Part shown: positions 41,824-63,456 of the stretch, piece by piece
Layout of the letters: every line of letters begins with the position of its first letter
How positions within the stretch are numbered: the first letter of the stretch is position 1
Source: Polaribacter sp. Hel1_85
GTDB lineage: Bacteria > Bacteroidota > Bacteroidia > Flavobacteriales > Flavobacteriaceae
Direction of reading: 5' to 3'
DNA length: 64,000 bases
NCBI RefSeq assembly: GCF_000766795.1
Contig: NZ_JPDS01000001.1
Coordinates: 67,001-131,000, forward strand
The notes under the pieces: generated by a model
What the model saw: the letters and a program-made list of their open reading frames with translations, nothing else
Database searches by the model: none
Told to the model about the DNA's origin: nothing
Made by a program: the position numbers and the translations under genes

Positions 41824-41835
41824 TATTGTTTTTCT

Positions 41836-41886
41836 CCTCGAGCGCAGTCGAGAGGTTTAAAGTTAGGTCTCGACTGCGCTCGACCA
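41836..41886. repeat. Family B repeat as a 16-bp hairpin pair after coaBC
   Basis: TCGAGCGCAGTCGAGA (41838-41853) is matched by its exact inverse TCTCGACTGCGCTCGA (41868-41883) across a 14-nt loop. Each arm is itself a copy of the short family B unit seen at 44532 and 62359. It lies between coaBC and porD. Confidence 0.75.
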
Positions 41887-41905
41887 GACATTTAAAACAA
41901 AATAA

Positions 41906-44521: not shown

Positions 44522-44528
44522 TTTTAAT

Positions 44529-44553
44529 GTCAGTTCGAGCGCAGTCGAGAACT
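44529..44553. repeat. Family B short repeat after recN
   Basis: TGTCAGTTCGAGCGCAGTCG (44529-44548), closing GAGAACT. The outer stem AGTTC/GAACT contrasts with ACTTC/GAAGT in the menD copy, so the stem pairs changed together. Confidence 0.65.
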
Positions 44554-45419: not shown

Positions 45420-45427
45420 TTTTATTT

Positions 45428-45564
45428 GAAGCTATTTCCTGCTTTCGCTACTCGCTTTTTTTAGTTTTGTTCTCGATACAAATTTGCTAAAAAAGCAAAT
45501 TCACTCGAACTGACAACTAAAAAAGAGCTCAAACAAACCGCTCAATCAGGGCTAAACTTGTTTG
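45428..45564 (-). ncRNA. Flavo-1-like structured RNA element, interrupted by a family B repeat
   Basis: Read on the minus strand the ends are AAACAAGTTTAGCCCTGATT, then GAGCGGTTTGTTTGAGCTC, and AAAGCGAGTAGCGAAAGCAG with GGAAATAGCTTC. This pattern (GCCCTGAT...AGCGG...AGCAGGAAATAGC) is what I recall of the Flavo-1 motif. A second, uninterrupted copy is at 61561-61654 and a diverged one at 60728-60808. The middle of this copy (45469-45515) is a family B long form. Confidence 0.55.
45469..45515. repeat. Family B long form nested inside the Flavo-1-like element
   Basis: TGTTCTCGATACAAATTTGC ... GCAAATTCACTCGAACTGAC, with an inner AAATTTGCT/AGCAAATT hairpin. Outer words match 28998-29071. The neighbouring Flavo-1-like copy at 61561 lacks it, so it looks like an insertion. 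Confidence 0.6.
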
Positions 45565-45668
45565 CCAACTTTTAGAAATATTAAAAAACCAATAATGTAT
45601 TTTTAATTATTTACTTTTACAATATAGTTTCAAAACCAAGAACTTTGAAACTTTGAAACTTTAGAACT

Positions 45669-59618: not shown

Positions 59619-59648
59619 TTGTTTAAATAAAAATCTATTGTAAATTTG
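59619..59648 (+). promoter_or_regulatory. -33/-7 promoter of the SRP RNA gene
   Basis: TTG at 59619-59621 and TAAATTTG at 59641-59648, with a 19-nt spacer, match the Bacteroidota -33/-7 consensus. The RNA begins a few bases downstream. Confidence 0.7.
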
Positions 59649-59650
59649 CA

Positions 59651-59748
59651 GCGGCAAGTCCTACACAACTAGCTCCCTTTGAATCCTCCAGGGCGGGAAC
59701 GCAGCAAAGGTATTAGGTTGTAGCAGTGTGATGTAGGTAGCTTGCCAT
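59651..59748 (+). ncRNA. ffs: Signal recognition particle RNA, small bacterial type
   Basis: About 98 nt. The closing stem GGCAAG (59653-59658) pairs with CTTGCC (59741-59746). The helix 8 core is readable: TCCTCCAGGGCGGGAACGCA contains the conserved GGAA-type tetraloop region and the asymmetric A/C-rich internal loop (AGCAAAGG) bound by Ffh. A T-run (ATTTTTTTA) follows as terminator. It binds Ffh to target membrane and secreted proteins. Confidence 0.93.
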
Positions 59749-59834
59749 TTTTTATGCGCTAAAGTTTCGTTCTAGAAATTTGCCTTTTTCCATTTTAACT
59801 TTTTAACTTTACAACTTTTAAAATAAAACATATT

Positions 59835-60838: not shown

Positions 60839-61492
60839 ATGAAATTTTTTATCGATACTGCAAATTTAGAGCAAATTAAAGAAGCGCAAGCTTTAGGAAT
60901 TTTAGACGGTGTAACTACAAACCCATCTTTAATGGCTAAAGAAGGAATTACTGGTGAAGCTAATATTATTAACCATTACAAAGAAATTTGTGAGTTGGTA
61001 GATGGTGATGTTTCTGCAGAAGTAATTTCTACAGATTTTGATGGAATGGTTAAAGAAGGTGAAGCATTGGCTGCTTTAAATCCTCAAATTGTGGTAAAAT
61101 TACCAATGATAAAAGACGGTGTAAAAGCATGTAAATACTTTTCTTCTAAAGGAATTAAAACAAACGTAACGTTGGTGTTTTCTGTTGGTCAGGCTTTATT
61201 GGCAGCAAAAGCAGGAGCAACGTATGTTTCTCCTTTTTTAGGACGTTTAGATGATATTTCTACAGACGGAATGAACTTAATTTCTGAAATTAGACTTGTT
61301 TTTGATAACTATAAATTTGAAACTCAAATTTTAGCTGCATCTGTAAGAAATACAATGCATATTGTGAATTGTGCAAAATTAGGATCGGACGTTATGACTG
61401 GACCTTTAAGTGCAATTGAAGGATTATTAAAACATCCTTTAACAGATAGTGGTTTGGCTAAATTTTTAGCAGATTACCAAAAAGGAAACTAG
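60839..61492 (+). CDS. fsa: Fructose-6-phosphate aldolase (small transaldolase family)
   Basis: TIM-barrel enzyme of 217 aa, the short transaldolase/FSA type. Sequence landmarks are [33 protein letters not shown], the Schiff-base Lys in [13 protein letters not shown], and [19 protein letters not shown] with SPFLGRLDD. It splits fructose-6-P or transfers dihydroxyacetone units in pentose phosphate metabolism; transaldolase activity is the main alternative for this length class. A Flavo-1-like element lies in its leader and a family D repeat starts at its stop. Confidence 0.92.
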
Positions 61493-61523
61493 AAGCCCCT
61501 TTAATTCCCCAAAGGGGAAAAAC
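61493..61523. repeat. Family D repeat (CCCCTTTAATTCCCC-AAA-GGGG)
   Basis: AAGCCCCTTTAATTCCCC followed by AAAGGGGAAAAACT. The element begins immediately after the aldolase stop. An inverted copy (61771-61806) is translated as part of menD. Confidence 0.6.
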
Positions 61524-61560
61524 TGTTGCGATATTGGTATTAAAAAAATAATAACAATTT

Positions 61561-61654
61561 GAAGCAATTACCCGCTTTCGCTACTTGCTTTTTTTACCTA
61601 AAAAGGGCAAAAAAGAGCTCAAACAAACCGCTCAATCGGGGCTAAACTTGTTTG
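61561..61654 (-). ncRNA. Flavo-1-like structured RNA element (uninterrupted copy)
   Basis: On the minus strand: AAACAAGTTTAGCCCCGATT, GAGCGGTTTGTTTGAGCTC, then GGTAAAAAAAGCAAGTAGCG and AAAGCGGGTAATTGCTTC. It is nearly the same as 45428-45564 without the nested repeat. It is divergent from menD and convergent with the aldolase. No clear promoter box was found at its 5' side. Confidence 0.55.
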
Positions 61655-61684
61655 AAAGCTAATAGTAAAACTAAAAATTATAAG

Positions 61685-61714
61685 AACTCCAAATTTATTA
61701 AGTTTGGAGTTTTT
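61685..61714 (+). terminator. Hairpin AACTCCAAA/TTTGGAGTT before menD
   Basis: AACTCCAAA (61685-61693) pairs with TTTGGAGTT (61703-61711) over a 9-nt loop and runs into Ts. It lies about 190 nt after the aldolase stop and 24 nt before menD, and probably ends transcripts coming from the left. Confidence 0.65.
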
Positions 61715-61737
61715 AAAAAAAAGATTAGTTTTTTTGA

Positions 61738-63456
61738 ATGAAAAAAGATAAGGTACATTTTTCCGGTACAAGTTTTTCCCCATCGGGGAAATTAAAAGGG
61801 GCTTTTCCAAAAAAAGAACTCGCACAAATTGTAATTTCAGCTTGTCATCAATTTAAAATTGATACAGTTGTTATATCTCCAGGTTCACGAAATGCTCCAT
61901 TAACTGTGGGTTTTTCTAATCATCCAGAAATTGAAGCTTTAAGTGTTGTTGATGAGCGATGTGCTGCTTTTTTTGCATTAGGAATTGCACAACAAACTCA
62001 AAAACCAGTGGCAATTGTTTGTACGTCTGGTTCTGCTTTACTGAATTATTATCCTGCAATTGCAGAGGCTTTTTATAGTAATATTCCATTAGTTGTAATT
62101 TCTGCAGACAGACCCAAGCATTTAATTGATATTGGTGATGGACAAACGATTCGTCAAGAAAATGTGTTTGAAAATCATATTTTGTTTTCTGCAAATTTAA
62201 TTGAGGACTCAAAATTTAAAACTCAAAATTTAGAACTTATTTCGGAAGCTTTACAAATTTCTGTATCACAAAAAGGACCTGTACATATAAATGTGCCTTT
62301 TGATGAACCTTTGTATGAAACAGTGAAAGAATTACAGCGTTTTAGTTTTCCAAATGTCACTTCGAGCGCAGTCGAGAAGTCTCTTGATTACAATAAACTT
62401 GCAAAAATTTGGAATGCATCAACAAAAAAAATGATTTTAGTTGGTGTAAATTATCCTGATAAAGATTTGCAAAAATTAATGGATGATTATGCTGATGATA
62501 ATTCTGTTTTAATATTCACAGAAACAACCTCAAATTTACATCATAAAAAAGCAATCAATTCTATAGATCAATTGATCTTTTCTTTGGATGAAAATCAGTT
62601 TGAGGCTTTAAAACCAGAAGTTTTAATCACTTTTGGAGGAATGATAGTTTCTAAAAAAATAAAACAATTTTTAAGAAAATATCAACCAAAACATCATTGG
62701 AATATTGATGCTAAAAAAGCTGTTGATACTTTCTTTTGTTTATCAGAATTTATACAAACAAATCCTGTAGATTTCTTTTTTAATTTTAGCAAATGCATTT
62801 CAGAAAAAGAAAGTGAATATCAACAAAAATGGTTGCAGTTTCGTGATGAAAAACGAGTGAAACATCAACAATATTTATCAAAATCAGTACATTCAGATTT
62901 TAAAGTTTTTGAACAAATTTTAGAAAGTGTTCCTAATCATAGTCAGTTGCAAATTAGTAACAGCTCAATTATTAGGTATGCTCAATTGTTTACAATAAAA
63001 GATACATTACGTGTGTTTTGTAATAGAGGAACAAGTGGAATTGATGGAAGTACAAGTACTGCAATTGGCGCTGCTTTTGCGAGCAAAAAACAAACAATTT
63101 TTATCACTGGAGATTTGAGTTTTTTCTATGATAGTAATGCGTTATGGAATAAGAATATTCCTAAGAATTTTAGAATTATTTTAATTAATAATTCTGGTGG
63201 TGGAATTTTTAAAATTATTCCAGGACCAAAATCTACAAATGCAACTAAGTATTTTGAGACTCCACATTGTTTAACAGCAGAACATTTGTGTAAAATGTAT
63301 GAGTTCGATTATTTAAAAGCATATTCTACAGAAACAGTAACAGCACAACTAAAAGGTTTTTATGAAACATCACAAAAACCAAAAATATTAGAAATTTTCA
63401 CGCCAAGTGAAGAAAATGATTTAATTTTAAAAGAATATTTTAAACTGATACAGTAA
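61738..63456 (+). CDS. menD: 2-succinyl-5-enolpyruvyl-6-hydroxy-3-cyclohexene-1-carboxylate synthase
   Basis: Thiamine-diphosphate enzyme of menaquinone synthesis joining isochorismate and 2-oxoglutarate. The 572-aa protein has VVISPGSRNAPLTVGF, the SGSALLNYYPAIAEA strand, the TPP core SGIDGSTSTAIGAAFAS with ITGDLSFFYDSNALW, and NNSGGGIFKIIPGP. MenD normally begins close to PKKELAQIVISACHQF; here about 23 extra residues precede it, encoded largely by an inverted copy of the family D repeat (residues about 12-23), and there is no later ATG, GTG or TTG in frame before the conserved part. A family B repeat is also embedded at residues about 206-214 (VTSSAVEKS), in a variable linker. Confidence 0.94.
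   Translation: MKKDKVHFSGTSFSPSGKLKGAFPKKELAQIVISACHQFKIDTVVISPGSRNAPLTVGFSNHPEIEALSVVDERCAAFFALGIAQQTQKPVAIVCTSGSALLNYYPAIAEAFYSNIPLVVISADRPKHLIDIGDGQTIRQENVFENHILFSANLIEDSKFKTQNLELISEALQISVSQKGPVHINVPFDEPLYETVKELQRFSFPNVTSSAVEKSLDYNKLAKIWNASTKKMILVGVNYPDKDLQKLMDDYADDNSVLIFTETTSNLHHKKAINSIDQLIFSLDENQFEALKPEVLITFGGMIVSKKIKQFLRKYQPKHHWNIDAKKAVDTFFCLSEFIQTNPVDFFFNFSKCISEKESEYQQKWLQFRDEKRVKHQQYLSKSVHSDFKVFEQILESVPNHSQLQISNSSIIRYAQLFTIKDTLRVFCNRGTSGIDGSTSTAIGAAFASKKQTIFITGDLSFFYDSNALWNKNIPKNFRIILINNSGGGIFKIIPGPKSTNATKYFETPHCLTAEHLCKMYEFDYLKAYSTETVTAQLKGFYETSQKPKILEIFTPSEENDLILKEYFKLIQ
61771..61806. repeat. Inverted family D repeat, translated within the menD N-terminus
   Basis: The reverse complement reads AAAAGCCCCTTTTAATTTCC, CCGATGGGGAAAAACT. 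This is the same element as 61493-61523 with small changes. It contains the hairpin TTTCCCC-ATC-GGGGAAA. Confidence 0.65.
62355..62383. repeat. Family B short repeat inside the menD coding region
   Basis: TGTCACTTCGAGCGCAGTCG then AGAAGTCTC. The 12-nt core CGAGCGCAGTCG is identical to that at 44529-44553, with both outer stem arms changed together (ACTTC/GAAGT). It keeps the menD frame open. Confidence 0.65.

Follow-up and report, generated by a model that had tools for sequence, protein, structure and literature searches.

In Polaribacter sp. Hel1_85 the gene for the vitamin K2 enzyme MenD opens with codons that lie ahead of the region recognized by the profile TIGR00173, whose match to the protein begins at residue 28. 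The question raised by this locus is where these first residues come from, and whether they are made as protein. A sequence-only reading of the window (the whole stretch of 64,000 nucleotides analysed here) had proposed that an intergenic hairpin repeat replaced the native menD start and was accommodated as a leader peptide. The features that bear on this proposal are collected in Table 1.

Table 1. Features at the fsa-menD junction and within menD (window positions).
Feature	Position	Strand	Basis and remarks
fsa, fructose-6-phosphate aldolase	60839-61492	+	TIGR00875, 285.4 bits (cut-off 245.95); stop TAG at 61490-61492
Repeat copy, 24-base form (32 bases)	61493-61524	-	Abuts the fsa TAG; oriented towards fsa, with its GGGGCTT end by the stop codon
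Other repeat module in the spacer	61557-61677	+	Second copy at 45424-45587; families D2 and D10, 87-90% identical
Terminator-like hairpin CTCCAAATT..TTTGGAGTTTTT	61686-61714	+	Read from sequence; motif counts across spacers
In-frame TGA	61735-61737	+	Abuts the 5' side of the ATG at 61738; read from sequence
ATG of menD	61738-61740	+	Sole usual start codon in frame ahead of PKKELAQ
menD open reading frame	61738-63456	+	572 codons, intact; TIGR00173, 381.6 bits (cut-off 244.2)
MenD leader, residues 1-11	61738-61770	+	Spacer-derived; relatives' 5' ends; pLDDT <50 over residues 1-20
26-base-form repeat read as MenD residues 12-22	61771-61804	+	Sequence, alignment, arm analysis
Ancestral MenD body from PKKELAQ	61807-63456	+	TIGR00173 match; relatives' 5' ends
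Second, unrelated in-frame menD repeat (TCGAGCGCAGTCGA family)	62353-62378	+	Residues ~206-214, NVTSSAVEKS; other copies given in the text

The menD gene is the next one after fsa, with 245 bases from the fsa stop to the menD ATG. Since an in-frame TGA abuts this ATG, a start further upstream is blocked. The sequence-only reading had noted that no ATG, GTG or TTG occurs in the frame between this ATG and PKKELAQ, which proved right; CTG and ATN codons are likewise missing from after the ATG to the CCA of PKKELAQ (61807), and no near-cognate NTG or ATN codon appears ahead of residue 31, which is within the conserved block. The predicted leader peptide reads KDKVHFSGTSFSPSGK. The base at position -3 of the ATG is a T; in the part of the Flavobacterium johnsoniae study drawn on here, an A at -3 is described as favouring initiation (PMC6847099).

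In an AlphaFold2 model of MenD, for which 34 proteins from the window and the loci were used (mean pLDDT 82.3), the enzyme body was predicted with good confidence, weaker near residues 432-511, and residues 1-20 fell below 50. The simplest reading of the model is that the leader is a disordered tail ahead of a normal enzyme. Folding of the mRNA over 61720-61830 gave no extra stability compared with shuffles (z 0.05), with a 7-bp hairpin present in both the minimum-energy and the centroid structures; an mRNA structure as the function of the repeat at menD was rejected, the folding signal not being above shuffles.

menD seems to tolerate repeats in two places, the second being the linker after the first domain of MenD, where an unrelated repeat is read in frame (Table 1). 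Other copies of this family are found at 44526-44551 and 41829-41854 and, inverted, at 41864-41896. By eye, the linker at residues ~205-225 of the menD loci L010, L064, L067, L113, L140 and others is like other in-frame dispersed repeats, for example VIANKVKQSVDEITSSF and VIASETKQSVDY. The window also holds a small SRP RNA of the Bacteroidales type at 59645-59751 (RF04183, 103.4 bits).

The sequence-only reading had further claimed that the repeat following fsa recurs, inverted, as coding sequence for part of the leader, and the comparison bears this out. The 34-base menD copy is inverted relative to the copy after fsa, and local alignment of the two gave 30 identical bases of 32 aligned, with two single-base gaps and a score of 46; when the whole spacer was compared with 2000 dinucleotide shuffles of the menD stretch the score never exceeded 39. 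The coordinates and the sequence had been given correctly; the repeat makes up codons 12-22 and one base of codon 23, and the copy after fsa runs to 61524. The menD copy is of a 26-base form, GGGGAAATTAAAAGGGG, and the fsa copy of a 24-base form, GGGGAATTAAAGGGG, which if placed in the menD frame brings in a TAA stop. Within the menD copy we distinguish a C-arm (61775-61781), a loop (ATC, 61782-61784), a G-arm (61785-61791), the triplet TTA (61792-61794) and a mirrored arm (61795-61801).

Copies of this repeat are dispersed over the genome and over those of relatives; the counts rest on pattern searches and on fetched sequence stretches. CCCCnnnGGGG occurs at five places in the 3.9-Mb Hel1_85 genome, all of which are the menD-leader repeat by context, and the reversed control pattern at one. 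The pattern CCCCTTYGGGGAN{0,3}TTAAAN{0,2}GGGGCT was found at 49 sites in 22 of 166 genomes, and its reversed control at none. The middle of the repeat is AAATTAAAA in the 26-base form and AATTAAA in the 24-base form. Gene edges were analysed in 48 distinct contexts: copies may end 1-8 nt before a start codon, end 0-5 nt past a stop codon, or be read in frame as protein. The 26-base form (31 contexts) has an ATG 1-8 nt downstream in 22 cases, lies within a coding sequence in six and follows a stop codon in three. None of the 15 contexts of the 24-base form is at a start codon; seven come after the stop of an open reading frame of at least 120 codons, and the other eight are without assignment. 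A 25-base form follows a stop codon in both of its contexts. In the Hel1_85 genome, trpD (C2:1250504, L144) and another gene (C1:233127, L143) each have a copy ending a few bases ahead of their ATG, and both keep this native start; the trpD case shows the stage before start-codon loss.

The six copies inside coding sequences are in four IcmF genes (that of Hel1_85 included), at the N-terminus of one HisIE and in one unnamed open reading frame. The identities of IcmF, HisIE and TrpD were assigned by NCBIfam, the IcmF piece being partial and below the whole-protein cut-off, with IcmF as its best model. In MenD, IcmF, HisIE and the unnamed frame alike, the repeat encodes a peptide of the SPLGKLKGA type, and the HisIE N-terminus and IcmF linker copies use the same frame as the menD leader copy. 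In all of the 30 best-scoring IcmF loci of 157 matching genomes, the linker that leads into the GTPase domain contains some form of the repeat in the SPLGKLKGA frame, from perfect to strongly decayed; because the query contained the repeat peptide, this set is biased to repeat carriers. No Rfam family lay over the repeat at the gathering threshold, and a search of the open-access literature gave no account of the menD-leader repeat or of in-frame triplex motifs in Flavobacteriaceae.

The description of the element as an intergenic hairpin repeat stands in so far as the hairpin arms pair, but a third arm mirrors the G-arm, so that it is not a plain hairpin. The layout is C-arm, TTT, G-arm, TTA and mirrored G-arm. 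Covariation was analysed in 29 IcmF and 10 MenD coding copies, a set that leaves out the IcmF locus L315 (a linker without register) and the menD loci L002, L028, L118 and L190. The C-arm/G-arm pairs seen in coding copies are TTTCCCC/GGGGAAA, CTTCCCC/GGGGAAG, CCTCCCC/GGGGAGG, CCTCTCC/GGAGAGG and CCCCTCC/GGAGGGG. Among the 24 distinct arm pairs, pairing is kept at 132 of 168 stem positions, and none of 10000 re-deals of the arms was as good (mean 118.0, maximum 128). The third arm mirrors the G-arm at 127 of 182 positions in coding copies, again with no re-deal of 10000 as good (mean 102.4, maximum 126). Several coding copies retain only 3-5 of the 7 stem pairs, which argues that the DNA structure is dispensable there.

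A further test of the mirror was made on hairpins with a pyrimidine loop in 252 loci that had not been fetched by the repeat pattern. The mirror is present at no fewer than 5 of 7 positions in 33 of 41 hairpins. Asymmetric arms in those loci are mirrored at 71 of 91 positions (re-deal mean 56.7, matched or exceeded by 4 of 10000); no mirror signal came from the opposite orientation (53/175, mean 54.6). These counts decide how seriously to take the alternative that the third arm is purine-rich drift and the element an ordinary hairpin without a triplex. When the IcmF loci were removed the mirror was still seen in 9 of 13, where the opposite orientation gave 0 of 13, but the re-deal test then drew on only five distinct asymmetric pairs and was weak, with 502 of 10000 as good; this shortage of distinct arms, and the loss of the mirror in some copies, would suit the ordinary hairpin. 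That reading is harder to reconcile with the fuller sets, where 4 and 0 of 10000 re-deals were as good. Going from the 24- to the 26-base form, moreover, adds a single A to either flank of TTA, a symmetric change, and the 25-base form occurs in just two distinct contexts. Departures from the mirror were A to T in 14 of 20 cases (G to A in four, G to T and G to C in one each), and as the purine motif tolerates a T facing an A-T pair, these 14 count for a triplex layout. We regard the ordinary hairpin as doubtful; the arms of the repeat have the layout of a class II intrastrand triplex motif, which could fold into a purine-motif triplex on one strand.

The sequence-only reading had called for a comparison of menD 5' ends in relatives. 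We compared 200 menD loci, corresponding to 137 distinct 5' ends; 27 of the loci came from further afield (Lutibacter, Flavobacterium and others). The group sampled comprised 166 genomes, its other members, mostly more distant, lying outside the sample, and Hel1_85 falls in it together with Polaribacter and Tenacibaculum. Most of the 5' ends (120/137) have an ATG directly at Y/F-PKKELAQ, typically as ATG-TAY-CC-AAA-AAA (MYPKKEL). Three (L045, L148 and L160) have TTG-TAT at YPKKELAQ and no in-frame ATG there. The remaining 14 have only a longer open leader, without a start at PKKELAQ: L001 (the window), L002, L019, L020, L021, L024, L028, L030, L113, L118, L129, L157, L161 and L190, the 5' end of L019 being identical to that of the named P. 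vadi locus L039. The leader is thus not an extension that all relatives share without similarity to the repeat, since the short start prevails and 13 of the 14 leaders hold the repeat in the same frame. It is uninterrupted in ten. In L002, L028 and L118 its loop is, by eye, split by another, GCCTGCATTGAGCGCAGACGAAATG-type repeat nested in frame, which supplies an in-frame ATG 7 codons before PKKELAQ. No recognisable repeat is present in the extended leader of L190.

The reading frame of these leaders is kept open. Counted over the 22 codons that precede PKKELAQ, frame 0 contains 2 stops across the 14 extended species, versus 21 and 25 in the other frames; the same stretch in 100 short forms has 197, 192 and 194 stops in the three frames. 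Both frame-0 stops of the extended species sit 5' of the first start codon, and every extended leader is therefore open from its first start codon, which is ATG in 6 of 14 and TTG in 8. This strongly supports translation of the repeat-bearing MenD leader. As to the claim that the repeat replaced the native start, the ancestral ATG is indeed missing and the leader with the repeat is open, but the start codon at 61738 and residues 1-11 are spacer.

The same comparison shows that the event is not private to this strain. On the menD tree (135 proteins) the extended label requires 12 changes, and a single clade of the 14 extended species is rejected with a p-AU of 1.9e-40, both figures coming from a quick tree with long branches. 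Together they mean that the extended label is scattered over the tree. A conflict of the same kind is seen in the spacers. We compared the fsa-menD spacers only, taking scores below 0.2 as unrelated and of at least 0.5 as similar. Among 45 species pairs whose MenD cores are at least 90% identical, 19 have unrelated and 21 similar spacers, and similar spacers also occur between species with more distant cores: in 28 of 468 pairs at 80-85% core identity, 35 of 2567 at 70-80% and 15 of 2548 at 50-70%. Because spacer similarity conflicts with gene similarity in this way, we infer that whole spacers have been exchanged, and the menD leader probably travels as a spacer allele between species. Pieces of the long intergenic module at 45424-45587 and 61557-61677 recur in the fsa-menD spacers of other species; counts with the spacer-module pattern GAAGCTATTTCCTGCTTT are excluded from the results.

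If each lineage had instead acquired the repeat by a transposition of its own, into or across the menD start, and not on exchanged spacers, the 12 changes on the tree would be accounted for equally, as would the varying repeat type among extended species (CCCC-TTT-GGGG versus CCTCTCC-TTT-GGAGAGG) and the copies that end next to many other genes. The spacers themselves tell against this. The terminator-like motif is present in 7 of 14 extended spacers and in 0 of 96 short ones, and the leaders of the extended species look, by eye, similar to one another upstream of the repeat, which points to common spacer descent; independent hits would also have to reach the same frame and place every time. 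We consider separate transposition unlikely. Slightly less likely still is a single extension at the base of the group, followed by many losses through return to an ATG at PKKELAQ: the homologous-looking leaders and the position of the window species as an early branch of the tree would agree with it, but most of the outgroup rows examined have the short start, and one clade is rejected and 12 changes are required. It overlaps with our preferred reading in that spacer swapping could itself be the mechanism of loss. That the repeat goes untranslated, through non-standard initiation after it or because menD is dead here, is very improbable, for although the ATG has a T at -3, no better start context is at hand and some relatives have TTG-only starts, NTG and ATN codons are absent before residue 31, inside the conserved block, the 572-codon frame scores well above the MenD cut-off, and the frame is open in 14 species.

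We thus return to spacer exchange and a translated leader, and consider the following account as a whole to be likely. MenD would be made from the ATG at 61738. What was once intergenic spacer encodes its first residues, and residues 12-22 correspond to a single copy of a short, dispersed repeat that usually has one end next to a start codon. The 26-base form, being free of stops in the SPLGKLKGA frame, would be tolerable as coding sequence. Once an in-frame upstream start had arisen, the ancestral ATG at PKKELAQ would have become dispensable and been lost, the leader remaining as a floppy tail before an intact enzyme. It would then have moved with the spacer allele between fsa and menD, homology for the exchange being supplied by the conserved ends of the two genes. 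The repeat itself has a triplex layout and may fold accordingly.

A wider claim can be put forward only tentatively. It is that Flavobacteriaceae such as these harbour a living family of repeats that form triplexes and co-vary across their three arms, the 26-base form being placed towards starts and the 24-base form towards stops; that the family has repeatedly entered coding sequences in one frame, giving the N-termini of MenD and HisIE and the inter-domain linkers of IcmF, which persist as protein even as the structure in the DNA erodes; and that the native menD start has been displaced in many lineages through spacer exchange. If true, this would join two things known separately, intrastrand-triplex repeats and protein-coding palindromes, and would describe a route from non-coding repeat to protein: settlement by a start codon in a stop-free frame, and then loss of the old ATG. 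Start-codon loss, domestication of a repeat and interspecies exchange of spacers would be testable at one small locus with many natural variants, several sister species having the same repeat-derived front on their vitamin K2 enzyme. It also cautions those annotating genomes of this group that an N-terminus may stem from a repeat and that TTG may have to be accepted as a start.

Several known systems share features with this locus. Horizontal regulatory transfer is the exchange of intergenic regions, and the unrelated spacer alleles at one junction, scattered with respect to the gene tree, resemble it; the difference is that the exchanged spacer also alters the N-terminus of a protein and that exchange would be between species. 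REP elements are short extragenic palindromes beside genes, paired with RAYT (Y1) transposases, and the menD-leader repeat is likewise a short palindrome beside genes. The Hel1_85 genome has no match to PF01797 (Y1 transposase), however, and a pattern search found no flanking copy of the repeat at the 8 inspected of 22 Y1 loci in related genomes; a RAYT as the engine of the repeat was rejected, as there is no Y1 in Hel1_85 and the Y1 loci of other genomes carry other hairpins. Proteins of ~190 residues at L277, L280 and L281, with weak Y1 transposase matches and other G+C-rich hairpins flanking them, are possible RAYT-like genes.

In the part of PMC4666352 that gives the ITxF definition, an intrastrand triplex motif has three consecutive Y-R-R stems on one strand, with stems of 6-15 nt and loops of 1-6 nt. 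The menD copy falls within these ranges, with 7-nt stems and the loops ATC and TTA in 61775-61801, and other copies are alike; the mirror expected of class II (triads C-G-G, T-A-A and T-A-T) is that seen in the 33 of 41 hairpins above, weakly so without the IcmF loci. The same portions describe TM_ECO of E. coli, with 9-nt stems, a TTA second loop and the consensus CCCTCNCCC N3-6 GGGNGAGGG N3 GGGNGAGGG, as a motif whose triplex formation was measured (Holder et al. 2015, PMC4666352). As far as they describe it, both elements consist of a C-rich stem, a loop, a G-rich stem, a 3-nt second loop and a second G-rich stem on a single strand; the second loop is TTA in TM_ECO type A and mostly TTA here, and both come in two subtypes that form inverted pairs, types A and B in TM_ECO and, between fsa and menD, the 24- and 26-base forms. 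The present repeat differs in having stems of 6-7 nt and another sequence, which does not fit the TM_ECO consensus, and in being known from its layout. Whereas TM_ECO in E. coli MG1655 is described there as always intergenic, at no fixed distance to genes (PMC4666352), many copies of our repeat end within 0-8 nt of a start or stop codon, or are in frame, as in menD, IcmF and HisIE.

Rickettsia palindromic elements (RPE), according to the part of PMC10969869 consulted, are short palindromes inserted in frame in unrelated metabolic genes, with a similar peptide each time. The SPLGKLKGA-type peptide in unrelated genes is comparable. Set against the elements described there, our repeat is shorter (~34 versus ~150 bp), has a mirrored third arm and includes one N-terminal case in which the native start is lost. 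Judged by its sequence and its placement, the menD-leader repeat behaves like an RPE and has the architecture of a class II triplex motif, and it is neither an RPE nor TM_ECO.
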